Assembly (NCBI GenBank): GCA_018222585.1 | Contig: JAAFAB010000001.1 | Coordinates: forward strand, 780,198 to 844,197 | Source: Paracoccaceae bacterium | GTDB taxonomy: Bacteria; Pseudomonadota; Alphaproteobacteria; Rhodobacterales; Rhodobacteraceae | Reading direction: 5' to 3' | DNA length: 64,000 bases | Part shown: positions 7,353-24,536 of the stretch, piece by piece | Numbering within the stretch: position 1 is the stretch's first letter | How the letters are laid out: the number at the start of each line of letters is the position of its first letter | Translations under genes and position numbers: made by a program | The notes under the pieces: generated by a model | Told to the model about the DNA's origin: nothing | The model's database searches: none | The model's input: only the letters and a program-made list of their open reading frames with translations

Positions 7353-8422
7353 GCCGTCGACGTATCGGTCCAGTAGGCCGAGAGGTAATGCGCGCCGCGC
7401 GGCAGCTTCCAGTCCTCGCGCATCCGCGCACGCAGGCGCTGCGCCGCCGTGGTCTCGCCCGCGAACCAGAGGAAGCCGGGAGTGCCGTGCTGATCCACCC
7501 GCGCCTCCAGCCAGTCGGCGGCCGAGCCGCCGGCGTCACGGCAGAGCACTTCGACCAGCGGGCGGATATCCTCGGGAATCGCCTCCTTGGCGGCCTCGTC
7601 GGCCAGTTCGATCACCGCGCGGGCGCGGCCTTCATGGTGGGTGAGGATGCGCAGGATGGCCGGCAGGGCGGTCTCGTCGCCACCGATCAGCAGGTCGTCC
7701 GTATCCGGGAACCAGCCGCCGCCGGGGCCGGAAAGGCCGACAAGACTGCGCGGCTCGGTGCCGGCCAGCAGGCCCTCGGCCCAGGCGCAGGTCGGGCCGC
7801 GGCCATGGGTGTAGACGTCGAACTCGATCCAGCCCTCTTCGGGCGAGACCGCGACGATGGTATAGGCGGGGGTGTGCAGCTTGTCTTCGCCCTCGGGCCA
7901 GCGGGTGCGGCCCTCGGGCGAGACGCAGGGCCAGACCGGAGTACGTCCCGGCGCGGGAATGGCCAGACGGAAGTGCATCCCGGTCTCGGCAAAGGGGGCA
8001 AGGGTCTCGCCGCTGACGCGCAACCGGATGAAATCGCGGTTGATCCGCCAGGCGCCGGTCACCGTGACAAGGCGGAAGTTGGCGGGCAGCGCGGGGGTAT
8101 CCGTCGCGCACCCAGCCTCCTCTCCTGCCCAGGCGACACCGCTGACGCCTTCCAGTTCTTCGGTCAGGTAAAAGACCGTGTCGCGCATCATCTGCAGCGT
8201 GCCCGCATCGCGCGCCCGCACCCCCAGCACCAGGCCGCGCTCGTCCTGGCGCAGGTCGACGAGGCCCACCGAGGTCGTGCAGGCGAAACGGCCCGGACGG
8301 TCCTCCTGCACCTCGCCGTATTCCAGGCTGCGGGCGCGCAGGGCGGCGAAGGTCGCGGGACCGTCGACACAGGTGATCAGCGCATCCATGGAAAAGCTCT
8401 GCGGGTCAGGGGAGAGGGTCAT
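7349..8422 (-). CDS. siderophore-interacting protein (ferric-siderophore reductase) with N-terminal DUF2218-like domain
   Basis: A 357-residue cytoplasmic flavoprotein expected to reduce and release iron from imported siderophore. From about residue 105 it matches the ViuB/SIP family: an FAD-binding barrel with AYTIVAVSPEEGWIEFDVYT and a glycine-rich GPGGGWFPDTDDLLIGGDETA stretch for NAD(P)H binding, ending in LRARMREDW and an HYLSAYW tail. Residues 1-95 (MDALITC, RFACTTSVGLVDLRQDERG, ARDAGTLQMMRDTVFYLTEE) look like a fused DUF2218 domain. The ATG at 8422 is preferred because an AAAGG lies 7 bases upstream; an in-frame extension to 8521 lacks support. It faces the importer operon tail to tail. 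Confidence 0.88.
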   Translation of the reverse strand: MTLSPDPQSFSMDALITCVDGPATFAALRARSLEYGEVQEDRPGRFACTTSVGLVDLRQDERGLVLGVRARDAGTLQMMRDTVFYLTEELEGVSGVAWAGEEAGCATDTPALPANFRLVTVTGAWRINRDFIRLRVSGETLAPFAETGMHFRLAIPAPGRTPVWPCVSPEGRTRWPEGEDKLHTPAYTIVAVSPEEGWIEFDVYTHGRGPTCAWAEGLLAGTEPRSLVGLSGPGGGWFPDTDDLLIGGDETALPAILRILTHHEGRARAVIELADEAAKEAIPEDIRPLVEVLCRDAGGSAADWLEARVDQHGTPGFLWFAGETTAAQRLRARMREDWKLPRGAHYLSAYWTDTSTA

Positions 8423-8634
8423 GGGGGAGCCTTTCTGTCGGGTCCGGGGTGCGCCGGGGCGGGCCGTCGGGTGCGGAGTAGCAAACCCTAGCAAAATCGT
8501 CAAGAATGACGCAGGCAGCACGCCGCAGACAGCCCACCAAGGCGCCGGGGCGTTTCGGTTTCTGCTTCAAACCCTTGCGCCGCTGTGCGATGGAAGATGA
8601 ACCGCCCTGCCCCCAACCCCCGGACCCCACAGCG

Positions 8635-9117
8635 ATGACTGCACTGGACGCGCGTGATCTTGCCATCCTGAAGGCCGTGGCCACCCATGGACGGATCACC
8701 AAGGTCGAGCTTGCCGAGCTGATCGGCCTGTCACCCTCGCCGACCTGGACACGGCTGAAACGGCTGGAAAAGGCCGGGCTGATCGAGGGCTACGGCGCGC
8801 GGCTGAACCTGCGCAAACTGGGCCCCTCGGTGACCGTCTTCGTCGCCGCCGAGCTGGGGGAGCACAAGGCCGCCTCGTTCCAGGGATTCGAGCAGGCGGT
8901 GCAGGGCCTGGAAGAAGTCGTGGCCTGCTGGGCCCTTGGCGGTGGTTTCGACTACCTGCTGCAGATCGTCACCCGCGATATCGAGAGCTATCAGGCGCTG
9001 ATCGATCACATGCTGGAAGCCCGCATCGGGCTGGCGCGCTATTTCACCTATATCGTGACCAAGCCGGTGAAGGGCCCCGGGCTGCCGCCGCTGGACCTGC
9101 TCTTCGGAGATCCCTAG
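8635..9117 (+). CDS. Lrp/AsnC-family transcriptional regulator
   Basis: A 160-residue regulator: a winged helix (LDARDLAILKAVATHGRITK, then LAELIGLSPSPTWTRLKRLE) followed by an Lrp RAM/ligand domain (VTVFVAAELGEH, VVACWALGGGFDYLLQIVTRD, ARIGLARYFTYIVTKPVK). The start at 8635 gives the usual short N-terminus; an in-frame ATG at 8590 is possible and neither has a clear ribosome site. It lies 133 bases upstream of the semialdehyde dehydrogenase/aminotransferase pair and probably controls them in response to an amino acid, as is usual for local Lrp paralogues. Confidence 0.9.
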   Translation: MTALDARDLAILKAVATHGRITKVELAELIGLSPSPTWTRLKRLEKAGLIEGYGARLNLRKLGPSVTVFVAAELGEHKAASFQGFEQAVQGLEEVVACWALGGGFDYLLQIVTRDIESYQALIDHMLEARIGLARYFTYIVTKPVKGPGLPPLDLLFGDP

Positions 9118-9133
9118 GAGCGGGGCTGACAGC

Positions 9134-9172
9134 CCAAACGGACCGTGCCACCGCTGCCCACAGCCCGTTTGG
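9134..9172. promoter_or_regulatory. inverted repeat upstream of the dehydrogenase operon (candidate Lrp operator)
   Basis: Two 8-base arms, CCAAACGG (9134-9141) and CCGTTTGG (9165-9172), centred 31 bases apart, sit between the Lrp gene and the dehydrogenase. The spacing is close to three helical turns, which suits a multimeric Lrp protein. There is no T-tract and the loop is long, so an operator is likelier than a terminator. Confidence 0.5.
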
Positions 9173-9250
9173 TCCGTGGCGGCGGCGCAGTTCGGTCTTA
9201 CCTGCCGTGCGAAGCTGCGATGCTTCCCTCGAACAGAAGGGAGCCCGCAC

Positions 9251-10720
9251 ATGCATATCTCGGACATCTCCGGCACCATCGCCGAAAGCCTGCTGATCCA
9301 TCGCCGGTCCCATATCGGCGGCCAGTGGGTCGAGGCCGACGACGGCGCCACCTTTGCCGTCACCAATCCCGCCGATGGCCAGACCCTGTGCCAGGTCGCA
9401 AGCCTCGGTGCCGATCAGGCCGCCAGCGCCGTCGATGCCGCCTCGGCGGCCTTCCCCGCCTGGGCCGCCACCCTGCCGCAGGACCGCGCCCGCATCCTGC
9501 GCCGCTGGCACGACCTGGTGCTGGCCCACAAGGAGGAACTGGCCCGGATCATGGTACTGGAACAGGGCAAGCCCCTCTCCGAGGCGCGCGGGGAAATCGA
9601 CTATGGCGCCGGCTTCATCGAGTTCTACGCCGAAGAGACCAAGCGCCCCAATATCGAGGGTGTCACCAGCCACCTGCCCGATGCCGAGGTCGAGATCTGG
9701 CGCGAACCGCTCGGCGTCGCGGCCCTTGTCACGCCGTGGAACTTCCCTTCGGCCATGGTGACCCGCAAGGCCGCCGCCGCGCTGGCGGCGGGCTGCACCG
9801 TGGTCGTGCACCCCTCCGCCGAAACGCCGCTGTCGGCGCTGGCGCTGGCCGAGCTGGCCCAGCAGGCGGGCCTGCCTGATGGTGTCTTCAACGTCGTGAC
9901 CGGCAAGGCCCCGGTGATCGTCGGGCGCTGGATGGAAGACAAGCGCATCCGGGCGCTGTCCTTCACCGGTTCGACAGAGGTCGGGCGGCTGCTCTACCGC
10001 CGGTCCGCCGAGACGGTGAAACGGCTGGTGCTTGAGCTTGGCGGCCACGCGCCCTTCATCGTCTTCGCCGATGCCGACATGGAGCGCGCCGTGTCCGAGG
10101 CGATCAAGGCCAAGTTCGCCACCTCCGGGCAGGACTGCCTGGGTGCCAACCGCTTCCTGGTCGAACGCCCGGTCTACGAGGAATTCTGCCGCCGCTTCAC
10201 CGAGGCGACGCAGGCGCTGACCCTCGGCACCGGGATGGAGGATCCCGACATCGGTCCGCTGATGAACGAGGGCGCCGTGGCCAAACAGGAAAGCCAGGTG
10301 GCCGATGCGGTCGCCAAGGGCGCGACGCTGCTGACCGGCGGCAAGCGCGACGATCTGGGGCCGCTCTTCTACCAGCCGACGGTGCTGGCCGACGTGCCCG
10401 CCGAGGCGCTGATCATGTCGGAAGAGACCTTCGGCCCCGTCGCCGCCATCGCCCCCTTCGATACCGAGGACGAGGCGCTCTCCCGCGCCAATGCCACCGA
10501 ATACGGCCTCGTCGCCTACCTGCACACGCTGGATCCGCGCCGCATCTACCGCCTGTCGCGCGGGCTGGAGTTCGGCATGGTCGCCGTCAACCGCACCAAG
10601 GTCACCGGCGCGCCGATCCCCTTCGGCGGCATGAAGCAATCCGGTGTCGGCCGCGAAGGCGCCCGCCAGGGCCTCGAAGCCTTCACCGAGGTCAAATACG
10701 TCTGCCGCGACTGGGCCTGA
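9251..10720 (+). CDS. gabD: NAD(P)-dependent succinate-semialdehyde dehydrogenase
   Basis: A 489-residue aldehyde dehydrogenase of the GabD type. It has [20 protein letters not shown] (cofactor-binding), the catalytic base Glu262 in [12 protein letters not shown], and the nucleophile Cys296 in [12 protein letters not shown]. The '[21 protein letters not shown]' stretch and the C-terminal [20 protein letters not shown] tail are characteristic of succinate/glutarate semialdehyde dehydrogenases. The ATG at 9251 follows AGAAGGGAG; an in-frame start at 9176 would read through the operator region. With the aminotransferase 52 bases downstream it would turn GABA, via succinate semialdehyde, into succinate. 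Glutarate semialdehyde is an alternative substrate. Confidence 0.88.
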
Positions 10721-12222: not shown

Positions 12223-12292
12223 CGCGTTCCGCGCAGGGCCGCGAGAAGCCCTCTGGACATCCGCCCCGGGCACGCGTTAACCCTAGGCCATC

Positions 12293-12382
12293 CGACAGGG
12301 GCGTCCGCGATGCGGGCTGAGAAGCACCCTTTGAACCTGAACCAGATCATGCTGGCGTAGGAAGTCGCGGACCCCTCCTGTC
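12293..12382 (+). promoter_or_regulatory. TPP (thiamine pyrophosphate) riboswitch
   Basis: The conserved THI-box core is plain: CTGAGA at 12317-12322 and the ACCTGA...GATCATGCTGGCGTAGGAA segment at 12335-12363. An outer P1 stem is formed by GACAGGGG (12294-12301) with CCCCTCCTGTC (12372-12382), and GTCCGCGA/TCGCGGAC gives a further helix. It lies 68 bases upstream of thiM. The short distance favours control of ribosome access to thiM, but no terminator or sequestering alternative fold was worked out. Confidence 0.96.
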
Positions 12383-12450
12383 ACGAGGCCCTGTCACGGG
12401 GCCTGCCGCCGCAGGGGACCTCCGTCCTTCCGCGCCCCAAGGAGCCCGGA

Positions 12451-13251
12451 ATGACCGATTGGGGAACCCCTCTCACCGCCATGCGCGACACTGCACCGCT
12501 GGTGCACTGCATGACGAATTACGTCTCGATGAACATCATGGCCAACGTGCTGCTGGCCAGCGGTGCCTCGCCCGCCATGGTTCCTGCCGAGGACGAGGCT
12601 GCCGAGTTCACCGGCATCACCAGCGCGCTGGCGATCAACATCGGCACCCTCTCGCAGCCCTGGCTGCGGGCGATGGAGGCTTCGGCCAGGGTGGCGGGCG
12701 AGCGCGGCATCCCCTGGGTGCTGGACCCGGTCGCGGTCGGCGCCACCGCCTTCCGCAACAGCGCCTCGACCGCGCTGCTGAAGCTCTCGCCCCCGATCAT
12801 CAAGGGCAATGCATCCGAGGTGATCGCCCTGGCTGGCATCGGCGCAGGCATCACCGCCAAGGGCAAGGGCGCCGATGCGGTTCACGGCGTGGACGCTGCC
12901 ATCGAGCCGGCCATCGAACTGGCCCGCCAGAGCGGCGCCGTGGTGGCGGTGACCGGCCCCGAGGACTTCATCACCGACGGCGCCACCCACTACCGGGTCG
13001 CCAATGGCGATGCGCTGATGCCGAAGGTCACCGCGCTCGGCTGCGCCCTTGGCGGCGTGGTGGGCGCCTTCGCGGCCAGCGGAGACCGGCTGCAGGGCAC
13101 CGTCGCGGCGCTGGCCTACTACGGGCTGGCCGGAGAGATCGCCGCCGAGGGTGCCGAGGGCCCCGGCAGCTTCGCCATGCGCTTCGTCGATGCGCTGGCC
13201 CAGATCGACGCGGCGCAGCTCACGGAGCGCGCCCGGGTCCGCGCGGCATGA
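12451..13251 (+). CDS. thiM: hydroxyethylthiazole kinase
   Basis: A 266-residue kinase that phosphorylates 4-methyl-5-(2-hydroxyethyl)thiazole so it can be joined to the pyrimidine by ThiE. Family features: CMTNYVSMNIMANVLLASGA near the N-terminus, 'PWVLDPVAVGATAFR', 'IIKGNASEVIALAG' and, near the C-terminus, VTALGCALGGVVGAF, equivalent to the family's GC-containing catalytic loop. An AAGGAGC precedes the ATG. First gene after the TPP riboswitch; the stop overlaps the thiE start. Confidence 0.95.
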   Translation: MTDWGTPLTAMRDTAPLVHCMTNYVSMNIMANVLLASGASPAMVPAEDEAAEFTGITSALAINIGTLSQPWLRAMEASARVAGERGIPWVLDPVAVGATAFRNSASTALLKLSPPIIKGNASEVIALAGIGAGITAKGKGADAVHGVDAAIEPAIELARQSGAVVAVTGPEDFITDGATHYRVANGDALMPKVTALGCALGGVVGAFAASGDRLQGTVAALAYYGLAGEIAAEGAEGPGSFAMRFVDALAQIDAAQLTERARVRAA

Positions 13252-13874
13252 ACACCCGGGTCACCTCACGGCTGATCCCGGGGGTCTACTTCGTCACCCC
13301 GGACGGCGCCGATGCGGCTCTGGTGCTGGCGGCGATGCGCGGCGGCGCGGCGATGATCCAGCTGCGCGACAAGCACGCCACGGATGCCGAGCTGACCGCC
13401 CTCGCCCGGCGCGTCCTGCCGGATCTGCGCGCGGCGGGCGTGCCGCTGGTGATCAACGACCGGCTGGAGGTGACGCTGGCCGTCGGGGCTGACGGGCTGC
13501 ACATCGGACAGGGCGACGGCGATGCCGCCGAGGCGCTGGCGGCACTGGCGCCCGGGCAGATGCTTGGCGTCTCGGTCGAGGCGCTGGCGCATCTGCCTGC
13601 CCTGCCGCCGGGCGTCGATCACATCGGCGTCGGCCCGGTGCGCGCCACGGCGACCAAGCCCGACCACGCCGCCCCCATCGGCTTTGCCGGTCTGGCCGAG
13701 ATCACCCGCGCCGCGCCGGTGCCGGTGGTGGCCATCGGCGGGCTGAAGGCCGCCGACACGGTGCCCGTGCGCATGGCGGGCTGCGCCGGCATCGCGGTGG
13801 TCAGCGCCATCTCGGCCGCCGCCGACCCCGAGGCCGCGACCCGCGCCCTCGTCGAAAGCTGGAGGCAGCGATGA
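13248..13874 (+). CDS. thiE: thiamine-phosphate synthase
   Basis: A 208-residue TIM-barrel enzyme that condenses HMP-pyrophosphate with thiazole phosphate. Motifs in order: GAAMIQLRDK, LVINDRLEVTL, DGLHIGQGD, DHIGVGPVRATATKPDHA, VAIGGL and IAVVSAISAA. The ATG at 13248 overlaps the thiM stop. The 3' end overlaps thiD by 4 bases, so all three synthetic genes are translationally coupled. Confidence 0.96.
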   Translation: MNTRVTSRLIPGVYFVTPDGADAALVLAAMRGGAAMIQLRDKHATDAELTALARRVLPDLRAAGVPLVINDRLEVTLAVGADGLHIGQGDGDAAEALAALAPGQMLGVSVEALAHLPALPPGVDHIGVGPVRATATKPDHAAPIGFAGLAEITRAAPVPVVAIGGLKAADTVPVRMAGCAGIAVVSAISAAADPEAATRALVESWRQR

Positions 13875-14665
13875 TCCCCAACGTCCTTTCCATTGCCGGT
13901 TCCGACCCTTCGGGCGGGGCGGGGATACAGGCCGATCTCAAGGCGATCTCGGCCAATGGCGGCTATGCCATGGCCGTGCTGACGGCGCTGACGGCGCAGA
14001 ACACCCAAGGGGTACACGCCGCGCAGCTGGTCGAGCCCGATTTCATCCGCGCCCAGCTGGACGCGATCTTCGAGGATATCGAGGTGCAGGCGGTGAAAAT
14101 CGGGATGCTGGGCAGCGCCGGCATCATCCGCTGCGTCGCCGAGGTCCTCTCCGGGCGGAACCTGCCCGTGGTGCTCGATCCTGTCATGGTGGCGAAATCC
14201 GGCGACCGGTTGCTGGCCGCCGAGGCCGTCGCCGCCCTGCCCGAGTTGCTGCCGCTGGCCAGCGTTATCACCCCCAACCTGCCCGAGGCCGCCGACCTGC
14301 TGGGCGCGCCCGAGGCATCCAGCCGTGCCGGGATGCAGGAACAGGCCCACGCCCTGCGCGCGCTTGGGGCCCGGGCGGTGCTGTTGAAGGGCGGCCACCT
14401 CGCGGGCGGTGACAGCCCCGACCTGCTGGTCACCGAGACGGGCGAAAGCTGGATCGAAGCGCCACGCATCGCCGGACCCGCCGCCCATGGCACCGGCTGC
14501 ACGCTGTCCTCGGCGCTGGCCACCCAGCTGGCCCAGGGCCTGCCCCTGCCCGAGGCCACTGCCCGGGCCAAGCACTACATCACCGGCGCCATCGCGGGCG
14601 CCCGTCACCTCTCGGTCGGGCGGGGCCACGGCCCCACCGACCATTTCTTCGCCCATAGGAGCTGA
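13871..14665 (+). CDS. thiD: bifunctional hydroxymethylpyrimidine/HMP-phosphate kinase
   Basis: A 264-residue ribokinase-fold enzyme that phosphorylates HMP twice to give the ThiE co-substrate. Diagnostic segments are LSIAGSDPSGGAGIQADLKA at the N-terminus, 'TALTAQNTQGV', 'VKIGMLGS', 'PVVLDPVMVAKSGDRLL', 'VITPNLPEAADLLG' and the C-terminal anion hole AAHGTGCTLSSALA. Its ATG overlaps the thiE stop. A pyrimidine transporter operon follows after 3 bases, which suits salvage of exogenous HMP. Confidence 0.96.
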   Translation: MIPNVLSIAGSDPSGGAGIQADLKAISANGGYAMAVLTALTAQNTQGVHAAQLVEPDFIRAQLDAIFEDIEVQAVKIGMLGSAGIIRCVAEVLSGRNLPVVLDPVMVAKSGDRLLAAEAVAALPELLPLASVITPNLPEAADLLGAPEASSRAGMQEQAHALRALGARAVLLKGGHLAGGDSPDLLVTETGESWIEAPRIAGPAAHGTGCTLSSALATQLAQGLPLPEATARAKHYITGAIAGARHLSVGRGHGPTDHFFAHRS

Positions 14666-14668
14666 GCA

Positions 14669-15595
14669 ATGCGCAAGACCCTGACTGCCCTCATCGCCCT
14701 TCTGCCGCTGCCCGTCGCAGCCGAGCCCTTCTCGGTCATGCTGGACTGGTTCGTGAACCCCGACCACGGCCCGATCATCGTCGCCGAGCAACGCGGCTAT
14801 TTCGCCGAGGCCGGGTTGGAGGTGCAGATCATCGCCCCCGCCGATCCCGCCGATCCGCCCAAGATGGTCGCCGCCGGAGAGGTCGACCTGGCGGTCAGCT
14901 ACCAACCCCAGCTCTACCTGCAGCACGATGCAGGGCTGCCGGTGAAGCGGGTCGGCACGCTGATCGACAGCCCGCTCTATTGCGTCATGGTGGATGCGGA
15001 CGGGCCGGTGCAGAGCCTTGCCGACATGGCCGGCCGCCGCGTCGGCTTCTCGGTCGCGGGGATTGAGGAGGCCCTGCTGCACCGGATGCTGCGTCACAAC
15101 GGGGTCGAGCCCTCGGAGGTGACCCAGATCAACGTCAACTTCTCGCTGACCCCGGCGCTGGTCTCGGACCAGGTGGATGCGGTCTCGGGCGCCTTCCGCA
15201 ATTTCGAACTGCACCAGATGACCGGCGTGGGCCGCGAGGGGCATTGCTTCCTGCCGGAAGAGAACGGCGTGCCGGCCTATGACGAGCTGATCTACCTTGC
15301 CGCCAGCGAGTCCGCCGAGGATCCGCGCATCGCCGCCTTCCTGGAGGCAACCGGGCGCGCCGCGCGCGAGATCGCCGCGGCCCCGGAAGCGGGCTGGGCC
15401 GATTTCTCGGGCTATTCCGCAGAGGTGGACGATGCGCTGAACCGGCTGGCCTGGGACGACAGCTATCCGCATTTCGCCACCGATCCGGCGGCGCTGGACC
15501 GCAGCCGCTACGCGGACTTCGGCACCTACATGGTCGAGATGGGCCTGATCGGGGCCGCGCCCAAGGTGTCGGAGATCGCCCTGGCCGCGCGATGA
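14669..15595 (+). CDS. thiY: HMP/formylaminopyrimidine ABC transporter substrate-binding protein (ThiY-like, NMT1/THI5 family)
   Basis: A 308-residue periplasmic protein with a short Sec signal (MRKTLTALIALLPLPVAAEP). The mature start 'FSVMLDWFVNPDHGPIIVAE' and the 'GEVDLAVSYQPQLYLQ', 'VGFSVAGIEEALLHRML' and 'VDAVSGAFRNFELHQM' segments are those of the ThiY/THI5-like pyrimidine-binding proteins. AGGAG lies 8 bases upstream of the ATG. Its place directly after thiD, under the TPP riboswitch and before a matching ATPase and permease, supports uptake of a thiamine pyrimidine precursor. Whether the ligand is HMP or FAMP is not visible. Confidence 0.9.
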   Translation: MRKTLTALIALLPLPVAAEPFSVMLDWFVNPDHGPIIVAEQRGYFAEAGLEVQIIAPADPADPPKMVAAGEVDLAVSYQPQLYLQHDAGLPVKRVGTLIDSPLYCVMVDADGPVQSLADMAGRRVGFSVAGIEEALLHRMLRHNGVEPSEVTQINVNFSLTPALVSDQVDAVSGAFRNFELHQMTGVGREGHCFLPEENGVPAYDELIYLAASESAEDPRIAAFLEATGRAAREIAAAPEAGWADFSGYSAEVDDALNRLAWDDSYPHFATDPAALDRSRYADFGTYMVEMGLIGAAPKVSEIALAAR

Positions 15596-16287
15596 GGGTG
15601 GCGGGCCTGCAGGGCCGTGTCCTGCTGGAGGGGCAGGAGCTGGTCCGCGACCTGGACCTGGAGCTGCCGCTTGGCTGGACCTGCCTGCTGGGCCCGTCGG
15701 GCGCGGGCAAGTCGACGCTGCTGCGCCTGCTGGCCGGACTGCCCGCGGGCGCCCGGCTGGAGGGGCGGCGTGTCGCGCCGGCGCGCATCGGCTGGCTGGC
15801 CCAGCAGGACCTGTTGCAGGATCGGCTGAGCCTTGCCGCAAACGTTCAACTGGCCGCCAGGCTGCGCGGCGCCCGGCCCGACCCGGCCCGCGCCGAGGCG
15901 ATGCTGGCGGCGGTCGGCCTTGCCGGGCGCGGTCGGGAGCGGCCGGAGGTGCTCTCGGGCGGGCAGCGGCAGCGGGTGGCCCTGGCGCGGGTGCTCTTCG
16001 ACGCCGCGCCGCTGGTGCTGCTGGATGAGCCCTTCTCGGCGCTGGACCCGGCCACCCGGGCGGGGATGCAGGCGCTGGCCCATGCGCGGTTGCAGGGCCG
16101 CCGGGTGATGATGGTCACCCATGATCCCGCCGAGGCGCTGCGCCTCGGCGACCGGGTCCTGCTGCTGAAGGAGCGCGCCCTGCACGATCTGCCTCCCCTC
16201 GCCCCGCCCCATCCCCGCGCCCCGGACGACCCCGAACTGGCGCTTTGCGCCGCCCGTTTGCTGGCCCGCTTGGCGGAGGTCGCATGA
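15592..16287 (+). CDS. thiZ: thiamine-precursor ABC transporter ATP-binding protein (ThiZ-like)
   Basis: A 231-residue ATPase with Walker A GPSGAGKST, a short LAQQDLLQDRL Q-loop, signature [15 protein letters not shown], Walker B LVLLDEPFSALD and the switch His in MMVTHDPAEALRLGDRV. At 231 residues it is compact, as in other nitrate/taurine/pyrimidine-type importers. Start and stop both overlap their neighbours by 4 bases. The role follows from its position between the ThiY-like binding protein and the permease. Confidence 0.9.
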   Translation: MRVAGLQGRVLLEGQELVRDLDLELPLGWTCLLGPSGAGKSTLLRLLAGLPAGARLEGRRVAPARIGWLAQQDLLQDRLSLAANVQLAARLRGARPDPARAEAMLAAVGLAGRGRERPEVLSGGQRQRVALARVLFDAAPLVLLDEPFSALDPATRAGMQALAHARLQGRRVMMVTHDPAEALRLGDRVLLLKERALHDLPPLAPPHPRAPDDPELALCAARLLARLAEVA

Positions 16288-17000
16288 GCCGCCTTCTGCC
16301 CCTGCTGCTGCCCCTTCTCGCCTGGGGCGCTTTCAGCCTGTCGGGCCTTGTCCCGCCCTATATCCTGCCCGCCCCGCAGGACGTGGCGGTGACGCTCGTG
16401 ACCGAGGCGGGGGTGCTCTGGCCCAACCTGCTGGTGACGCTCTCGGAGACGCTGGCCGGGCTCGCCCTGGGCCTGGTGCTGGGGGCTGCGGTGGCGGTGG
16501 CGATGACGCTCTCGCCGCGACTCGGACGGCTGGCCGGGCCGGGGCTGGTCGCCTCGCAGGCGCTGCCGGTCTTCGTGCTGGCGCCGGTGCTGACGCTGTG
16601 GATGGGCTACGGGCCGGGGCCGAAGGTGGCGATGACGGTGCTGCTGGTCTTCTTCCCCGTCGCCTCGGGCCTGCGCGACGGGCTGGCGGCGACCCCGCCC
16701 GCCGTGCTGGACCTCGCCCGGATCAGCGGCGCCTCGCCCCTGCGCACCCTGCTCTGGCTGCGCCTGCCCCATGCCCTGCCCCACCTCGGCGCGGCGCTGC
16801 GCATCGCCGTCACCTATGCGCCGACCGGCGCGGTGATCGGAGAATGGGTCGGCGCCTCGCAGGGATTGGGTTACCTGATGCTGATGGCCAATGCGCGGAT
16901 GAAGATCGATCTGATGTTCGCCGCCCTGGTGCTGATCGTCGCGATGACACTGGTGCTGAATCTCGGCACCGACCGGCTATTGCGACGCGTAGGCATGTAG
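16284..17000 (+). CDS. thiX: thiamine-precursor ABC transporter permease (ThiX-like)
   Basis: A 238-residue, about six-helix permease of the BPD-type family. The coupling loop is 'DLARISGASPLRTLLWLRLP', followed by HALPHLGAALRIAVTYAPTG, 'GEWVGASQGLGYLM' and 'MLMANARMKIDLMFAALVL', as in the SsuC/ThiX group. The ATG at 16284 overlaps the ATPase stop; the in-frame upstream ATG at 16245 lies inside that gene. Last gene of the thiamine salvage operon. A hairpin without T-tract (GCGCCC/GGGCGC, 17019-17035) follows. Confidence 0.9.
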   Translation: MSRLLPLLLPLLAWGAFSLSGLVPPYILPAPQDVAVTLVTEAGVLWPNLLVTLSETLAGLALGLVLGAAVAVAMTLSPRLGRLAGPGLVASQALPVFVLAPVLTLWMGYGPGPKVAMTVLLVFFPVASGLRDGLAATPPAVLDLARISGASPLRTLLWLRLPHALPHLGAALRIAVTYAPTGAVIGEWVGASQGLGYLMLMANARMKIDLMFAALVLIVAMTLVLNLGTDRLLRRVGM

Positions 17001-17276: not shown

Positions 17277-20200
17277 ATGGCTGGGACGACTTCTCAGGTC
17301 AGCGCGCGGCTGCGCGCGGCCAACAAAAGTGGCTTGACGGGCATCACGCTGCTTCTCGGAACCACGATGCTGGTATCCACCGCCGCCCTGGCCACCCCGA
17401 TCGATCCGATCGATCCGCCAACCGCCCCGGCCCCCGGCTGCGAGGTCGCGGACATGACGGCGACCTGCACCGGCGACCAGTCCGCCGGTCTCGCCGTCAC
17501 CGATCCCTTCGTCACCCTCGAGGTCAACGACCTGACCCAGGGCATCGCGCCCGCCGACGGCACCGCAGGCATCGCCTACGAGACCGAGACCACAAATGTC
17601 ACGCTGCTGAGCAACACCGGCGAATTCGCCATCACCACCAATGGCGCTGACGGCATCCTGGTGGGCAGCAAGGACGGCGACGTCTACATCAACCACGAGG
17701 GCGACATCACCGCCACGGGCGGGCGCGGCATCCATGCCTACGCCGACCAGGGTGAGGCAGTGATCGAGGGCGCGGGCAACGTCACCTCGACCCTCGATGC
17801 GATCTCGACCAATCCCCGCCTCGGCGGCGCGGCGCTGAACTGGGAAGGCAACATCACCTCGACCGAGGGCCGGGGCATCGACCTGAAGGCCGACAACGGC
17901 GTCGCCTCGGCGGCCGGGTCGGGCGCCATCGTCTCCCAGCAGGACGCGGTCACCCTCGATTCGCGCGGGGCCGGGGCCGACACGAGCTTCAACTGGACCG
18001 GCGACATCACCTCGCACGGCGGCAGCGCGGTGCTGCTGAACGCCGATGACGGCGGTGTCAGCGTCACCGGCTCGGGCACCGTCATGGCCGAGGTCAACGG
18101 CTTCGACCTGGACGCCCGTGGCGAAGAGGAAGACGCCTGGCTGGGCTGGGAAGGCGACATCACCGCCACCACCGGCTTCGGCGCCCGCGTCTACTCCGCC
18201 AATGGCGGCGCGGATATCGAGGGCAGCGGCACCGTCAATGCCGGCGACTTCGCCTTCCACGTCCTGACCGAGAACACCAGCCAGCCCGCCTCGCTGAAAT
18301 GGACCGGCGACATCACCTCTCAGCTCAGCTTCGGCGTGCTGGTCGAGACCGTCGGCGGCGCCGCCACCGTGCAGGGCAGCGGCACCGTGCAGACCCATAC
18401 CGACGCGCTGACCGCCAATGCCATCGGCGGCGACGCCAACGTGATCTGGACCGGCGACGTGACCTCGACCACCGGCCGCGGCCTGGTGGCCCTGTCCAGC
18501 TCCGGCGGCGCGTCGGTCAACGGCAGCGGCACGGTGATGACCGAGCTCGACGCGATCACCGCCAGCAACACCGCCGGCACCACTGCGACGGTGACCTGGA
18601 ACGGTGACATCACCTCGACCTCGGGTCGCGGCGTCTATGTCTTCTCCTCCAGCGGCGCCACCAACCTGAACGGTTCGGGCACCATCATGGGCGGCACCGA
18701 CGGTGTCAGCATCTCCAACACCGGCTCGCAGACGGCGGCGCTTGGCTGGAGCGGCGACATCACCGGCGGCACCGGCTACGGCGTCTACATCTACTCGGCC
18801 AACGGCCCGGCCACCGCTTCCGGCACCGGCGCGGTCAGCGGCGCGCTCGACGCCTTCCACCTGGAAACCGAGGGCAGCGCCACCGCCAGCCTGAACTGGA
18901 CCGGCGACATCACCTCGACCGGGGGCAACGGCGTCCACATCACCACGGCCCAGGGCGCGGTCTCGACCCAGACCAACGGCCTGATCGACGCCGAGATGGG
19001 CGGCATCTACATCTCCAGCGGCTCGGCGAACACCAGCAACACCGTCTCGGTCGAGCACAGCGGCAACATCATCGCCGGCGGTGTCGGCGTCGAGGCACAC
19101 AGCCCCGTCGCCCCGGTCACCGTCAAGGTCACCGGCGATATCGACAGCGGCTCCTACGGGATCCACGCCGAAAGCCAGGCGGACGCAACCGTCACCGTCG
19201 AGCAGACCGGCACGCTGGACGCGGGCAATACCGGCATCCACGCCTACAGCGCCAACGGCGACGTGAACGTGAAGCAGAACGGCTACCTGGAAGCCTACGG
19301 CGACGGCATCCTTGCCCAGAACGAGGGCGACGGCACGGTCTACGTCAGCAAGGAAGGCGATATCCTGTCGCATGAGCGCGGCATCGCCGCCCTCTCCTCG
19401 ACCGGCAATGTCGTCGTGCGGATGAGCAACGGCAACATCGACAGCGGTGGCACCGGCATCCAGGCGGGCAACGAGAGCGGCGAGACCGTTACGGTCGAGA
19501 TGACCGGCAATATCGATGCCGATGGCGCCGGCGTCCTGGCAAGCTCGTCCAACGGGCAGGTCTGGGTCACCGTCGACGGCGATATCGACGTGGGCGGCGA
19601 TGGCGCCTCGGCGATCAACGAGGGCTCGGGCGAGGTCGGCGTGACCTATACCGGCGAGATGATCGCCGGCGGCAACGGCCTGGTGGCCGGCTCGGCGACC
19701 GGCAATGCGACCACCACCCTCACCGAGGGCAGCAGCGTCAGCGCCGCCGAGAACGGCATGAGCCTGGCCGGCTTCGGCAATCTCTCGGCCAATATCGGCG
19801 AAGGCGCCACCGTCACCGGCGGCGAGGGCTTCGCGGGTGTCTTCTTCGACACCGGCCTGCAGAACACCGTGACCAATCACGGCACGATCAACAACGCCGG
19901 CGGCGTGGACGAATACGCCATCCTGGCCGAGGACAACGACGTCCTGGTCGAGAACTACGGCACGATCAGCGGCAACGTGGTGCTGGGTCCCTGGGCCAAC
20001 GACTTCAACAACTACGAGGGGTCGCTGCTGGAAAGCGGCACCATCCTCAACCTCGGCACCGGCAACACGGTCACCGTCGAAGGCACCCTGTCGCCCGGCG
20101 GCAAGGGCACGGTGATGACCACCGCCCTGACCGGCAACCTCGAAACCACCGCGACCAGCACCCTGCTGCTGGATCTCGACATGGGCGCCGAGGTCGACAC

Positions 20201-21512
20201 CAACGACCTGATCGAGGTCTCCGGCGTGGCCTCGCTGGAAGGCGCGGTGACGCTGAACTTCGTCACTGCCAGCGCAACGCCGCAAAGCTACGTCTTCATC
20301 TCGACCGGAGAGGGCGTGACGCTGCAGGACCTGTCGCTCAGCGACAATCCCTTCGTCACCGCCTCGATCGAGACGATCAATGACGGCGACGACGTGCAGG
20401 TCACCATCTCTGAGCTGAACTTCGCCCCCGAGGGCCTGACCGGCACCGCGGGCACCATCGCGGACTACCTGCAGCGGGCCATGGCCGCGGGCGGCGACGG
20501 CCTGGGCGAACTGGGCGCGCTGGTGCTGAACAGCGGCGATCTGGAAGGCGCCCAGGCGGCCTACGACGACCTGGCCCCGACCCCCTATGTCGATGCGCTG
20601 GACGCCGGCTACCTGAACACCCTGAACTTCACCGACAACCTGATGAGCTGCTCGGTCCCCTCGGGCCTCTACGCGGAAGTGGCGGAAGGCAGCTGTGACT
20701 GGACCAAGCTGACCTACAGCAACTACAGCCAGGACAGCGCGGGCGGTGGCGAGGCGACCACGGTCACCACCATGTACACCACCGGGATGCAGCGGGCGCT
20801 GAAGGGCGACTGGCGCGGTGGCTTCGGCTTCGGCTTCTCGGGCTCGAGCACCAGCAACCCCAATGGCGACAGCTCGCACGGGACCACGTTCCACGCTGGT
20901 GCCTCGCTGAAGTACGCCCCCGGCCCCTATGCCTTCTCGGCGGCTCTGACCGGCAACTGGGGCGACCGCGACACGACCCGCTTCGCGACCGTCGGCGGCT
21001 CGACCCAGACGCTGACCGGGAACTTCGGCGTTTCGGCGGTGAACCTGAAACTGCGCGGCTCCTATGTCTTCGGAAGCGACAGCTTCTTCATCAAGCCCCG
21101 GGTCGACCTCGACACCACCCTGGTGCGGTCGGATGCCTTCACCGAAACCGGCGGCAGCGCGGCGCTGAGCGTCGAGTCCACCGACCAGGTGGTCTACAGC
21201 CTGTCGCCCTCGCTGGAGTTCGGCACCACCCGCCGCGACGCGGATGGCAGCGTGATGCGCACCTTCGCCCGGATCGGGACCACGGTCTTCTCGGACAGCG
21301 ACCTGCCGCTGACCGCGACCCTGGCCTCGGACGGCACCGGGGTGACCGGCTTCTCGACCACCAACAGCGATGACGGCCAGATCTGGAGCCTCGCCGCCGG
21401 CTTCACCGCCTTCAACGCCGGCGGCTGGTCGGCCGAAGCGCAGTACAACCTCAATTTCGACAGCCACTCGCAAGAGCACGTCGCCAGCCTCAAGATGCGC
21501 AAGACCTTCTGA
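17277..21512 (+). CDS. large repetitive autotransporter (type Va secretion), beta-helical passenger
   Basis: A 1411-residue secreted or surface protein. An extended signal region (residues 1-39, hydrophobic ITLLLGTTMLVSTAALA) is followed by a Cys54/Cys63 pair. The passenger holds nine 49-51-residue repeats beginning W-x-G-D-I-T (residues 140-590), nine 24-25-residue repeats beginning x-G-D/N-I (593-815), and a linker with TNHGTINNAG and ENYGTISGNVVLG turns typical of autotransporter beta-helices. From about residue 1130 (TIADYLQRAM, ALDAGYLNTLNFTDNLMSC) comes a 12-strand-type beta-barrel ending in the aromatic KMRKTF, recognised by BamA. AGAGGGA precedes the ATG. The stop overlaps the next gene's start (TGATG). 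The cargo function is unknown; adhesion or biofilm formation is the usual family role. No protease triad was seen. Confidence 0.87.
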   Translation: MAGTTSQVSARLRAANKSGLTGITLLLGTTMLVSTAALATPIDPIDPPTAPAPGCEVADMTATCTGDQSAGLAVTDPFVTLEVNDLTQGIAPADGTAGIAYETETTNVTLLSNTGEFAITTNGADGILVGSKDGDVYINHEGDITATGGRGIHAYADQGEAVIEGAGNVTSTLDAISTNPRLGGAALNWEGNITSTEGRGIDLKADNGVASAAGSGAIVSQQDAVTLDSRGAGADTSFNWTGDITSHGGSAVLLNADDGGVSVTGSGTVMAEVNGFDLDARGEEEDAWLGWEGDITATTGFGARVYSANGGADIEGSGTVNAGDFAFHVLTENTSQPASLKWTGDITSQLSFGVLVETVGGAATVQGSGTVQTHTDALTANAIGGDANVIWTGDVTSTTGRGLVALSSSGGASVNGSGTVMTELDAITASNTAGTTATVTWNGDITSTSGRGVYVFSSSGATNLNGSGTIMGGTDGVSISNTGSQTAALGWSGDITGGTGYGVYIYSANGPATASGTGAVSGALDAFHLETEGSATASLNWTGDITSTGGNGVHITTAQGAVSTQTNGLIDAEMGGIYISSGSANTSNTVSVEHSGNIIAGGVGVEAHSPVAPVTVKVTGDIDSGSYGIHAESQADATVTVEQTGTLDAGNTGIHAYSANGDVNVKQNGYLEAYGDGILAQNEGDGTVYVSKEGDILSHERGIAALSSTGNVVVRMSNGNIDSGGTGIQAGNESGETVTVEMTGNIDADGAGVLASSSNGQVWVTVDGDIDVGGDGASAINEGSGEVGVTYTGEMIAGGNGLVAGSATGNATTTLTEGSSVSAAENGMSLAGFGNLSANIGEGATVTGGEGFAGVFFDTGLQNTVTNHGTINNAGGVDEYAILAEDNDVLVENYGTISGNVVLGPWANDFNNYEGSLLESGTILNLGTGNTVTVEGTLSPGGKGTVMTTALTGNLETTATSTLLLDLDMGAEVDTNDLIEVSGVASLEGAVTLNFVTASATPQSYVFISTGEGVTLQDLSLSDNPFVTASIETINDGDDVQVTISELNFAPEGLTGTAGTIADYLQRAMAAGGDGLGELGALVLNSGDLEGAQAAYDDLAPTPYVDALDAGYLNTLNFTDNLMSCSVPSGLYAEVAEGSCDWTKLTYSNYSQDSAGGGEATTVTTMYTTGMQRALKGDWRGGFGFGFSGSSTSNPNGDSSHGTTFHAGASLKYAPGPYAFSAALTGNWGDRDTTRFATVGGSTQTLTGNFGVSAVNLKLRGSYVFGSDSFFIKPRVDLDTTLVRSDAFTETGGSAALSVESTDQVVYSLSPSLEFGTTRRDADGSVMRTFARIGTTVFSDSDLPLTATLASDGTGVTGFSTTNSDDGQIWSLAAGFTAFNAGGWSAEAQYNLNFDSHSQEHVASLKMRKTF
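17694..19046 (+). repeat. nine ~150-bp coding repeats (W-x-GDIT class) in the passenger
   Basis: Repeat starts fall at 17694, 17841, 17994, 18147, 18300, 18447, 18597, 18747 and 18897, at steps of 147-153 bases. Each unit opens with a Trp (His in the first) and GDIT-type turn, then a GRGV-like segment, an S-x-G turn, 'GSGTV' and a DA-containing strand. This fits two beta-helix coils per unit. Confidence 0.9.
19053..19724 (+). repeat. nine ~75-bp coding repeats (x-GDI class) in the passenger
   Basis: Units start at residues 595, 619, 644, 668, 693, 718, 743, 767 and 792, at steps of 24-25 residues. The pattern is x-G-D/N-I-(D/x)-x-G-x-x-G-I-x-A-x-S-x-x-G-x-V-x-V. Spacing is half that of the preceding class. 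Confidence 0.88.
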
Positions 21513-23743
21513 TGGTTTCCTGGTCACAAGCCGAGACGGCTCGACCGCCGGTCGCGAAAGCGTCCGGCGGTGGCAGCCGTCGCGCACGCCGGTCGGACGG
21601 GCTGGACAGGGGCGAGTTGTGGCTGGTCGGCCTGTCGGTCGGCCTGTCCTCGCTGCTGTTCCTGACCTTCGCCGGTTTCGCGGCAAACGCGCTCTACCTG
21701 CATGGCTGGCAGATGCTGCCCTTCGTGCTGCTGATCGGGGGGCTGTTCTACTGCGCCCTCTGCTATCAGGTGATCCGCCTGGGGGCCGCGCGCCGGCCCC
21801 GGGCCGGGGCCCTCACCGACTGCGATCCGGCGCTGCTGCGCGCCGGGGCGCCTTCGGTCGCGGTGCTCATCCCCTCCTACCAGGAAAGCCGCCGGGTGGT
21901 GATCGGGACGGTGCTGTCCGCCGCCCTTGCCAGCTATCGCAACAAGCGGATCGTGGTGCTGGTCGACGACGCGCCCGGCAATGCCGCCGCGCTGGACGAG
22001 ACCATGGGCGCCATCGCCGACGTGCGGGACTGGCTGGCCGAGGGTCGCGCCATGCGCGACGCGGCCCTCTCCGGCCCGGCCACCGCCGCCCGCTTCGCCC
22101 CCGCCTATGAGGCTCTTGCCGCCTGGCTGGACGGCATCGCCGAGCGGCTGCGCGCCGAGGGCGATTCCTCGTTCGCCCATGTCGACAGCTTCGTCGTCGA
22201 GCGCGTGGTGCTCTCCCTGGCCCGGCGCTACCGCAGCGAGGCGCAGCGCTTGAGCCGCGCCCAGAACTGGGACCCGGCGCTGGAGCGCGACCGGCTGGCC
22301 TGCCAGCTGACCGGCGAGATCGAGAGCTTCCAGCGCAAGATCTACGCCAATCTCTCGCATGGGCCCAACAAGGCGATGAACCTCAACGCCTACCTCGGCC
22401 TGATGGGCGACGACTGGGATATCGAGATCCGCGACGGCAGCCGGACCCTCGTGCCGGCAACCGGGGCCGAGCCCGATCTTGCCATTGCCCAGACCGATTA
22501 TGTGCTGACCCTCGACGCCGACAGCGTCATCGTGGCCGACTACATGCTGACCCTGGTCGGCGAGCTGGAGTCCCGCCCCGCCGCCGCCGTCGCCCAGACC
22601 CCCTACCTGACCTTCCCCGAGGGCCCCTCTCCGGTCGAGCGGATCGCCGGGGCGACCACGGATATCCAGTACCTGATCCACCAGGGATCCAGCCACTACG
22701 ATGCCGCCTACTGGGTCGGCGCCAATGCGGTGATCCGCACCCGGGCGCTGCAGGACATCCTGCAGCGGCGCCAGGAAGAGGGCCACGAGGTCAAGGTCTA
22801 CGTGCAGGACAAGACGGTGATCGAGGATACCGGCTCGACCATCGACCTGCAGGACCGGGGCTGGCACGTCCACAACCACTTCGCGCCCATGGCCTACAGC
22901 GCCACGCCGGCCGATTTCGGCGCCCTGGCGATCCAGCGCAAGAGATGGGCGAACGGCGGGCTGATCCTGTTCTTCGACCTGCTGCGCAGCACCTGGAAAC
23001 GCGGCGGTATGCTGCGTGCCCTGCCGATGCTTCTGGTGCGCTCGCACTACCTGCTGTCGCCGCTGATCGGCAATATCGGGATCCTGGCGCTGATGCTGAT
23101 GGCCGTGGACCAACCGCACCCGCTGTTCTGGGCACCGCTGTTCATGACGCCCTACTTCGTGCTCTACATGCTGGACCTGCGCCGCATGGGCTATCAGTGG
23201 TGGGATCTCTTCGGGGTCTGCGCGCTGAACCTGATGCTGCTGCCGGTGAACCTGGCGGGGATCCTCGCCTCGATCTGGCAGATGGCGGGCGGCAAGCGCC
23301 GCAGCTTCACCCGCACGCCCAAGCTGGCGTCGCGCACCTTCATCCCGCCCTATGCCTTCCTGTTCAACCTGGCGATCCTGGCGCTGATGACCTTCTACGT
23401 GGCCATCGGCATTCACACCGAGAAGACCCTCGGCGTGGCGATCCCGCTGATCAACATCGTGCTCTACAGCTACGGGCTGGTCCGCTTCGTCGGGCTGCGC
23501 GACGGCTTCGCCGACCTCGGCCTGCGGATCGGTCAGATCCTGCGCGGCGTGGCAAGCCCGTTCCGCCGCCGCCGTCGCCCCGCCCCTGCCGTCACCACCG
23601 AGGCGCTGCCCCAGGCCATCGCCGCGCAGCCCGAAACCGGCCTGCGCGCCCCCACGGGCGCCGGTCGCCTCTACCCGCGGGACTTCCCGGCGCAACTCGC
23701 GCCCTCTGCCCCCCGCCCCCTGTCGTCCGAGGAGGACCGATGA
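21512..23743 (+). CDS. membrane-embedded family 2 glycosyltransferase with large helical insertion
   Basis: A 743-residue inner-membrane GT2 enzyme. Two N-terminal membrane helices (about 37-60 and 68-88) precede the GT-A domain: VAVLIPSYQE at 117-125, UDP-sugar Asp pair 152-153 (VLVDDAPGN), metal-binding Asp335-Ala-Asp337 (LTLDADSV), an acidic IEDTG at 437-441 in the usual TED position, and Gln475-x-x-Arg-Trp479 (QRKRW). About five more helices follow, giving a processive cellulose/hyaluronan-synthase-like layout. Between the first Asp pair and DAD lie about 180 residues, roughly twice the usual spacing, filled mainly by charged helix. The start overlaps the autotransporter stop and the end overlaps the Sel1 gene. 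Sugar and acceptor are unknown: it could make a polysaccharide or glycosylate a lipid carrier or protein. Confidence 0.87.
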   Translation: MVSWSQAETARPPVAKASGGGSRRARRSDGLDRGELWLVGLSVGLSSLLFLTFAGFAANALYLHGWQMLPFVLLIGGLFYCALCYQVIRLGAARRPRAGALTDCDPALLRAGAPSVAVLIPSYQESRRVVIGTVLSAALASYRNKRIVVLVDDAPGNAAALDETMGAIADVRDWLAEGRAMRDAALSGPATAARFAPAYEALAAWLDGIAERLRAEGDSSFAHVDSFVVERVVLSLARRYRSEAQRLSRAQNWDPALERDRLACQLTGEIESFQRKIYANLSHGPNKAMNLNAYLGLMGDDWDIEIRDGSRTLVPATGAEPDLAIAQTDYVLTLDADSVIVADYMLTLVGELESRPAAAVAQTPYLTFPEGPSPVERIAGATTDIQYLIHQGSSHYDAAYWVGANAVIRTRALQDILQRRQEEGHEVKVYVQDKTVIEDTGSTIDLQDRGWHVHNHFAPMAYSATPADFGALAIQRKRWANGGLILFFDLLRSTWKRGGMLRALPMLLVRSHYLLSPLIGNIGILALMLMAVDQPHPLFWAPLFMTPYFVLYMLDLRRMGYQWWDLFGVCALNLMLLPVNLAGILASIWQMAGGKRRSFTRTPKLASRTFIPPYAFLFNLAILALMTFYVAIGIHTEKTLGVAIPLINIVLYSYGLVRFVGLRDGFADLGLRIGQILRGVASPFRRRRRPAPAVTTEALPQAIAAQPETGLRAPTGAGRLYPRDFPAQLAPSAPRPLSSEEDR

Positions 23744-24480
23744 CACATCCCATCAGATCAGCACTTCTGTCGCTCGCCCTCGCCGTCGCCCCGCTGTCGG
23801 CGGCCATGGCGCAGACCGGCCCCGTCGCGGCCATCGCCCGCGGCGACGCCCTTGTCGAAAGCGGCGATCCCGCCAAGCTTTCCGAAGCCCTCGAGCTCTA
23901 CGTCTCCGCTGCCGAGGCCGGTTCCGTCTGGGGCCAGTACAAGGCCGCGGAAATGTACTACGAGGGCCAGGGCACCGAGCAGGACCGTGCCCGTGCCGCC
24001 GAGCTCTACGGCGATGCCGCCGACCAGGGCAACGCCTGGGCGCAGTACAAGCTGGGCGGCATGTTGCTGACCGGCGACGGCATCGACCCGCTGCCGAGCC
24101 GCGCGGTCGAACTGCTGGATGCCGCCGGGTCGCAGGGCAACATCTGGGCCAACTACCAGCTGGGCGACGCCTACCTGCAGGGCGATGTCATCGCACAGGA
24201 CCTGACCCGCGCGAAGTTCTACCTTGAGCGCGCCGCCGAACAGAACAACGCCTGGGCGCTGCTGCGCCTCGGCGAGATGTACCGCGACGGTCGCGGCGTG
24301 ACCAAAAGCCTGACCGACGCGAAGACCCTGCTGGAGCAATCCGTGGCGCAGAAGAACAGTTTCGCCATGGTCTCGCTTTCGGAAATGATCGCCGAGGACG
24401 AGCCCGAGCGCGCCAAGGCCCTGCTGAGCGAGGCCGCCGAGCTGGGCAATGCCGCCGCCCAGGCCAAGCTGGCCGAGTAA
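23740..24480 (+). CDS. secreted Sel1-repeat protein
   Basis: A 246-residue protein with a Sec signal (LLSLALAVAPLSAAMAQ, cleavage near residue 25) and then a solenoid of about five to six Sel1-like repeats of about 36 residues. Each repeat has the A-x-x-Y/G-x-A-A-x-x-G pattern, for example DRARAAELYGDAADQGNAWA, 'DLTRAKFYLERAAEQNNAWA' and 'ERAKALLSEAAELGNAAAQA'. It would reside in the periplasm as a scaffold. The ATG at 23740 overlaps the glycosyltransferase stop (ATGA). Sel1 proteins accompany alginate and other exopolysaccharide machines (AlgK is one), which supports a partner role for the glycosyltransferase. This is inference. Confidence 0.85.
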   Translation: MTHPIRSALLSLALAVAPLSAAMAQTGPVAAIARGDALVESGDPAKLSEALELYVSAAEAGSVWGQYKAAEMYYEGQGTEQDRARAAELYGDAADQGNAWAQYKLGGMLLTGDGIDPLPSRAVELLDAAGSQGNIWANYQLGDAYLQGDVIAQDLTRAKFYLERAAEQNNAWALLRLGEMYRDGRGVTKSLTDAKTLLEQSVAQKNSFAMVSLSEMIAEDEPERAKALLSEAAELGNAAAQAKLAE

Positions 24481-24502
24481 GCCGCGCCGCAAGACATGGA
24501 AA

Positions 24503-24536
24503 GGGCCGGAGGTGAGATCCACCTCCGGCCCTTTTT
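24503..24536 (+). terminator. Rho-independent terminator after the Sel1 gene
   Basis: A 12-bp perfect stem (GGGCCGGAGGTG/CACCTCCGGCCC, 24503-24514 with 24520-24531) and TTTTT at 24532-24536. It lies between convergent genes; on the minus strand the stem is followed by only TTT, so it may also help end the DUF1684 transcript. Confidence 0.93.

Follow-up and report, generated by a model that had tools for sequence, protein, structure and literature searches.

A three-gene locus encoding an autotransporter (AT), a membrane-bound family 2 glycosyltransferase (GT2) and a secreted Sel1-repeat protein lies in a 64,000-nucleotide stretch of a Paracoccaceae bacterium genome (GCA_018222585.1, contig JAAFAB010000001.1, positions 780,198 to 844,197), referred to here as the window. 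Its three open reading frames (ORFs) are all on the plus strand. The first (17277..21512) encodes an AT of 1411 residues with a signal-peptide-like N terminus (read by eye), a long repeat-containing passenger rich in Gly, Thr, Ala and Ser, and a C-terminal translocator. The second (21512..23743) encodes a BcsA-like, processive-type membrane synthase of 743 residues, assigned from Pfam and a structural model, and the third (23740..24480) a Sel1-repeat protein of 246 residues, assigned from Pfam. The Pfam E values are 6.7e-27 for the AT beta-domain, 5e-29 for Glyco_trans_2_3 and 3.1e-26 for Sel1, the last over four stretches. At the first junction (TGATG, reading TTCTGATGG) the GT2 start codon and the AT stop codon share one base, and at the second (ATGA, reading CGATGACA) the Sel1 start overlaps the GT2 stop. 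A gap of 276 bases separates the AT gene from the preceding ORF, which stops at 17000. An intrinsic-terminator-like hairpin with a T run follows the trio on the same strand at about 24498..24536, and a 65-nucleotide stretch holding it folds at -43.3 kcal/mol (z -6.28, with 0 of 200 shuffles equal or better). The first-pass annotation had described three overlapping genes bounded by this gap and a strong terminator; the ORF list and junction letters agree with it, and the fold is consistent with a terminator, though a simple consensus terminator scan did not report the hairpin.

Related loci were collected with a GT2-profile scan, one genome per species, and the best 80 of 558 loci were sampled. 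The GT2 tree, built by a quick method without bootstrap, has 77 rows (76 loci and the window); L025 (which has an AT), L045, L047 and L088 were left out, their GT2s running off the contig. A row was judged for an AT only where both flanks reached 3 kb or more, and 23 of the 77 rows, L038 among them, went unjudged for short flanks. AT, Sel1 and GT2 genes were called on ORFs by hidden Markov models (HMMs) built from the window's family or repeats, with a Sel1 threshold of 80 bits; such calls miss unrelated ATs and divergent repeat proteins. Twenty AT-linked GT2 rows fall on one side of a single branch with support 90, and adding L038 gives 21 rows and a branch support of 100. A Sel1 gene is present in 18 of the 20. 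Since none of the 34 judged rows outside this clade has an adjacent AT of the trio family, the tie to an AT is a property of one GT2 clade. The co-occurrence count that the first-pass annotation had proposed as a test of its dedicated system therefore comes out positive within the clade and negative in the wider GT2 family, and its interpretation stands in part: the AT-GT2-Sel1 link is real within one GT2 clade. The AT-linked rows fall in genera that we take to belong to Rhodobacterales and Hyphomicrobiales.

The gene set is preserved while its order is shuffled, and at least four orders occur. AT-GT2-Sel1 is found in nine rows (the window, L020-L024, L029, L031 and L035) and a Sel1 gene divergent from a GT2-AT pair in seven (L026-L028, L030, L032, L034 and L041). 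L033 has the order Sel1-AT-GT2, with Sel1 just 5′ of the AT and 601 bases from AT to GT2, and L036 has Sel1-GT2-AT. The double overlap is confined to the window, L020, L021 and L022, other relatives having mostly short gaps; since the same two junctions recur in these three relatives, chance alone does not account for them. Protein distances are correlated among the three partners, those of the AT tracking those of the GT2; this demonstrates that the partners were inherited together, not that they work together. The comparison took the longest ORFs and skipped L030; spurious extensions are therefore present at the N termini of the Sel1 proteins in L020-L022, and the L022 AT is cut by the contig end. 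Neighbours kept together by joint horizontal transfer only, with no shared function, would fit a rare and patchy distribution and the split of the Rhizobiaceae into two groups on the tree (L029/L031 and L032/L034). Hitch-hiking, however, expects one fixed order rather than the same set in at least four, and the Sel1 proteins carry a tryptophan signature not seen in controls (described below), so that such passive transfer is very unlikely. Chance adjacency was rejected on the tree, the gene orders and the tryptophan ladder.

The GT2 carries the motifs D152-D153, D335-A-D337, E438-D439 and Q475-x-x-R478-W479 (21965..22948, plus strand, by alignment). The motif columns are invariant in 31 aligned sequences, the others being 41-84% identical to that of the window, and we take the D, DxD, ED and QxxRW motifs to have their catalytic roles in this GT2. 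A structural model (pLDDT 83.1, pTM 0.83) matches BcsA best and hyaluronan and plant cellulose synthases next; in model and alignment, the segment of residues 158-263, which separates the first Asp pair from an NKAMN motif, is mostly helical. By eye the model offers six to seven candidate membrane helices plus an interface helix, against the seven helices counted earlier. The protein scores 81.8 bits against the BcsA equivalog model TIGR03030 (cut-off 699.1) and, unlike BcsA synthases, has no PilZ domain detectable by a Pfam scan at E <= 0.1. Judged from its motifs and model, it appears to be a processive-type inner-membrane synthase, and it probably spins out a sugar polymer. Among NCBIfam models, CelA matches at E 2.9e-23 and MdoH weakly, at best 6.6e-10. 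The MdoH matches, together with the lack of a recognised polysaccharide pore in the locus, favour a GT2 that makes a periplasmic glucan of the osmoregulated (OPG/MdoH-like) kind, bound by Sel1, with the AT a separate adhesin under joint control. CelA outscores MdoH, however, and the AT accompanies the GT2 in every gene order seen and follows it in protein distance, which makes a periplasmic glucan decidedly improbable. Nine out-group GT2s (L039, L040, L042, L044, L046, L049, L082, L094 and L099) lie near a shared homologous ORF; testing it in one locus, L046 (Bradyrhizobium), identified BcsS (PF17036).

The third protein of the window has four Sel1 repeats (residues 57-200; 23908..24339, plus strand), each with a Trp at position 8 (W64, W100, W136 and W172). 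Scored with an HMM masked at that position, Trp occupies position 8 in 69 of 75 repeats of 18 trio Sel1 proteins (L030 skipped and the L045 Sel1 added), a set that includes the window's own repeats and is related by descent. In control Sel1 proteins (33 ORFs at 30 loci of a class-level search) it is found in 0 of 154 repeats, Ser, Glu, Asp and Lys being commonest; this control favours canonical repeats because its loci are the best-scoring PF08238 matches of the search. A smaller first control gave Trp in 3 of 49 repeats of other Sel1 proteins, P0149 and P0150 excluded, and in 71 of 84 trio repeats. P0149 and P0150 have Trp in 4 of 4 repeats each (8/8) and are candidate trio members. A protein search with Sel1 returned at least nine matches. 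The N terminus, read by eye as signal-peptide-like, suggests a periplasmic location; in 6 of 11 aligned Sel1 proteins (L023, L024, L029, L032, L035 and L045) it looks lipoprotein-like by eye, and in that of the window it does not. Exposed aromatic residues that recur along a solenoid typically serve to hold a sugar chain. In our alignment of Sel1 L13-G14 on L7-G8 of what we take to be the tetratricopeptide repeat (TPR) signature, the position-8 Trp falls on TPR position 2. That position ranks among the seven that vary most in TPRs, lies exposed on the concave side and takes part in ligand contacts (PMC1261162). For PgaA, modelling has led to the proposal that deacetylated poly-N-acetylglucosamine (dPNAG) is guided to the porin by aromatic and acidic residues on the concave side of the TPRs (PMC9384988). 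We read the Trp ladder as a putative glycan rail, its sequence suited to holding a polymer.

The AT has a PF03797 beta-domain at residues 1142-1391 (20700..21449, plus strand), modelled as 12 long strands and a preceding helix. The predicted barrel looks like a normal 12-stranded translocator and aligns with NalP including the pore helix, as in a type Va autotransporter, and the AT is therefore probably not an open porin. A search of the Protein Data Bank (PDB) with the AT profile returned only EstA and AaaA, at the C-terminal part. In the passenger, a stretch at 17841..18899 (plus strand) has a Trp about every 50 residues (189, 240, 291, 342, 391, 441, 491 and 541). There are eight such motifs in the window and three to seven in the 11 closest database relatives (P0122-P0132); other trio ATs and P0133-P0140 have mostly zero to two, and L021 three. 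As a general rule the series was rejected, being confined to close relatives. Among 5.8 billion proteins the AT finds 28 matches at E <= 1e-5, its own included. Going by matching contig sizes, 12 of the other 27 are apparently on the same contig as a GT2 match, with 14 unjudgeable; one such pair has the successive names JG765_2340 and JG765_2341, and the contig of P0136 is that of L035, where AT and GT2 adjoin. The AT profile matches G528 (E 9.1e-106) among 385 genomes and, more weakly, G570, G466, G038 and G587 at E <= 1e-15 among 190 genomes. Because such relatives exist, the C-terminal type is wider than the trio; G038 has weak GT2 matches only (best 6.4e-7). The AT of L020 (Oceanicola sp. 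S124) lies in two overlapping frames (5750-8488 and 8190-10001), owing to a frameshift or a sequencing error. That of L058 (5883-9640, no Sel1 nearby) is in two ORFs (5883-6503 and 6522-9560), with a hairpin-like sequence and a T run, noted by eye, between AT and GT2. Near the GT2-AT pair of L037 is a gene for an EAL-domain protein with a CSS motif (17870-19501), and a link to cyclic di-GMP is possible.

The AT and glycosyltransferase genes are adjacent, as they are in the AIDA-I/Aah and TibA/TibC pairs, and the passenger is rich in Ser (9.4%) and Thr (12.1%) over residues 41-840. Both features suit the idea that the GT2 or its product glycosylates the AT, as in the heptosyltransferase-autotransporter pairs to which the first-pass annotation had drawn an analogy. 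Aah and TibC are soluble cytosolic transferases, whereas Pfam places the trio partner in GT2 and its model has membrane helices. It is an integral membrane, processive-type protein with a QxxRW motif and a BcsA-like fold, to which a Sel1 protein is added whose Trp ladder better suits chain binding. Glycosylation of the AT is accordingly an unlikely account of the locus.

The locus is rare and patchy, even among relatives. Of 40 genomes (the window's own and 39 relatives) nine have any match at E <= 1e-3, mostly weak; one other genome has a high-identity match (G003, 83%), at the same coordinates as L020. Two wider sets, each counting the window's own genome, add one further matching genome apiece: G128 (on two contigs) at E <= 1e-40 among 394 genomes of the family, and G714, with a distant match to the GT2 profile, at E <= 1e-80 among 385 class-level genomes. 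The GT2 family itself is very large, with at least 4595 proteins at E <= 1e-20 among 7997 candidates scored. A plasmid search returned 14 records, every one below 60% identity. Among them are distant GT2s at 39% (L015, L016 and L017), carried by an Arthrobacter plasmid and by Lactococcus prtP plasmids; in L015 and L016 a GH18 or chitinase gene is adjacent. No such trio locus was found in the literature, as judged on titles and abstract openings, and the trio seems to represent a route to surface-glycan synthesis and display that has not been described before.

Its nearest analogues are the synthase-dependent exopolysaccharide systems (alginate AlgK/AlgE, cellulose BcsC, poly-N-acetylglucosamine (PNAG) PgaA and Pel PelB). 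These likewise have an inner-membrane GT2 synthase with D, DxD, ED and QxxRW motifs, a separate alpha/alpha-repeat (Sel1-like) protein that is periplasmic or anchored in the outer membrane, and a barrel protein in the locus. The earlier comparison with exopolysaccharide machines is supported by the BcsA-like fold and by the lipoprotein-like N termini of several Sel1 relatives. In the trio, however, the barrel is predicted to be a 12-stranded autotransporter with a passenger and not a porin of 16-18 strands. The AlgE porin has 18. PgaA and BcsC have 16 (PMC9384988). Nor was a conserved modifying enzyme recognised near the trio among neighbours common to at least three loci within 6.5 kb. Because no such porin was recognised in the locus, the trio is not filed as a member of these systems; by analogy it may be described as a synthase and repeat carrier coupled to an autotransporter. 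It resembles the AlgK family in that a GT2 synthase is accompanied by a secreted Sel1-repeat protein, which looks like a lipoprotein in several relatives. In contrast to AlgK, its Sel1 protein falls far below the AlgK equivalog cut-off (NF038194, 32.9 vs 700 bits), and the one Trp per repeat sets it apart from the class-level controls. The out-group GT2s belong to the same wide synthase family and have envelope or polysaccharide neighbours: BcsS-type genes in Bradyrhizobium and Azohydromonas, and MBOAT, acyltransferase or polysaccharide deacetylase genes elsewhere. Unlike the trio they have no AT of its family (34 judged rows) and at most weak Sel1-like ORFs.

We propose that the trio is a dedicated three-layer envelope glycan module in which the GT2 extrudes, Sel1 carries and the AT holds a glycan at the surface, a proposal to which we give about an even chance. 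The motifs and predicted fold suggest that the BcsA-like GT2 would polymerise sugar in the cytosol and extrude the chain through its own membrane channel. The secreted Sel1 protein would bind the emerging chain along its exposed Trp ladder, one Trp per repeat, a strong signature in the sequence, and would take it through the periplasm, a role like that suggested for AlgK and for the TPR region of PgaA. An ordinary 12-stranded translocator of its own would bring the AT through the outer membrane, and the AT passenger may be the surface attachment or organising site for the chain, as co-inheritance suggests. A bolder version, which we hold tentatively and rather doubt, makes the type V translocator the outer-membrane end of the machine: the chain would pass via the Sel1 ladder to the AT and be exported or fixed to the passenger, giving a protein-glycan thread. 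The barrel might also be the glycan exit itself, a type V translocator replacing the AlgE, BcsC or PgaA porin in synthase-dependent export. The AT is the only outer-membrane protein recognised among the conserved neighbours, the trio has one part for each of the three layers in known synthase-dependent systems, and the nine out-group loci with a homologous ORF (BcsS in L046) hint at a recurring envelope partner. The plugged barrel weakens this route, with its NalP-like pore helix in the model, and we think it unlikely.

Several observations weigh against the three-layer module. There is no known polysaccharide porin in the locus, the AT barrel aligning with NalP including its pore helix, and no pore was recognised among neighbours common to at least three loci within 6.5 kb, the rest of the genome lying outside that search. 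Surface anchoring by the AT is a step that we infer. L037 and L058 have an AT and a GT2 with no Sel1 within the locus. Sel1 places fetched from these genomes and that of L038 (four, one and three loci, respectively; weaker matches were not fetched) show no ladder, and one of the places in this check, L147, has Trp in one of five repeats. Permutations and label shuffles leave shared descent in place. In four loci that do not belong to the clade (L050, L067, L090 and L098) the GT2 has weakly scoring Sel1-like ORFs in its vicinity (26-60 bits), and a Sel1 partner may therefore predate the AT link. The AT of G528 has a related C terminus and a different passenger, in a genome with no GT2 match at E <= 1e-10; with this relative in view, a generic autotransporter joined to a generic partner was considered and set aside. 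Finally, the locus is rare even among relatives and is therefore dispensable to the genus.

The flanking genes have no evident connection with the trio. The gene before the trio encodes an ABC transporter permease; the one after it, on the opposite strand, encodes a DUF1684 protein. Further upstream a TPP riboswitch (12287-12380, 69.9 bits) precedes a ThiD-like kinase gene and a set of ABC transporter genes (13871-17000); the region from 12287 to 17000 is probably a thiamine-precursor cluster, its genes named by eye except for the permease.

If the proposed module is correct, these bacteria would have a compact three-gene surface-glycan system whose autotransporter stands in for the usual export porin or supplements it. 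A Sel1 protein with one Trp per repeat offers a ready-made rail that can be mutated, and with it a clear test of how a polysaccharide is handed over across the periplasm. The module would also give a functional setting to alphaproteobacterial ATs that, in the searches made here, are named only as autotransporters or hypothetical proteins.
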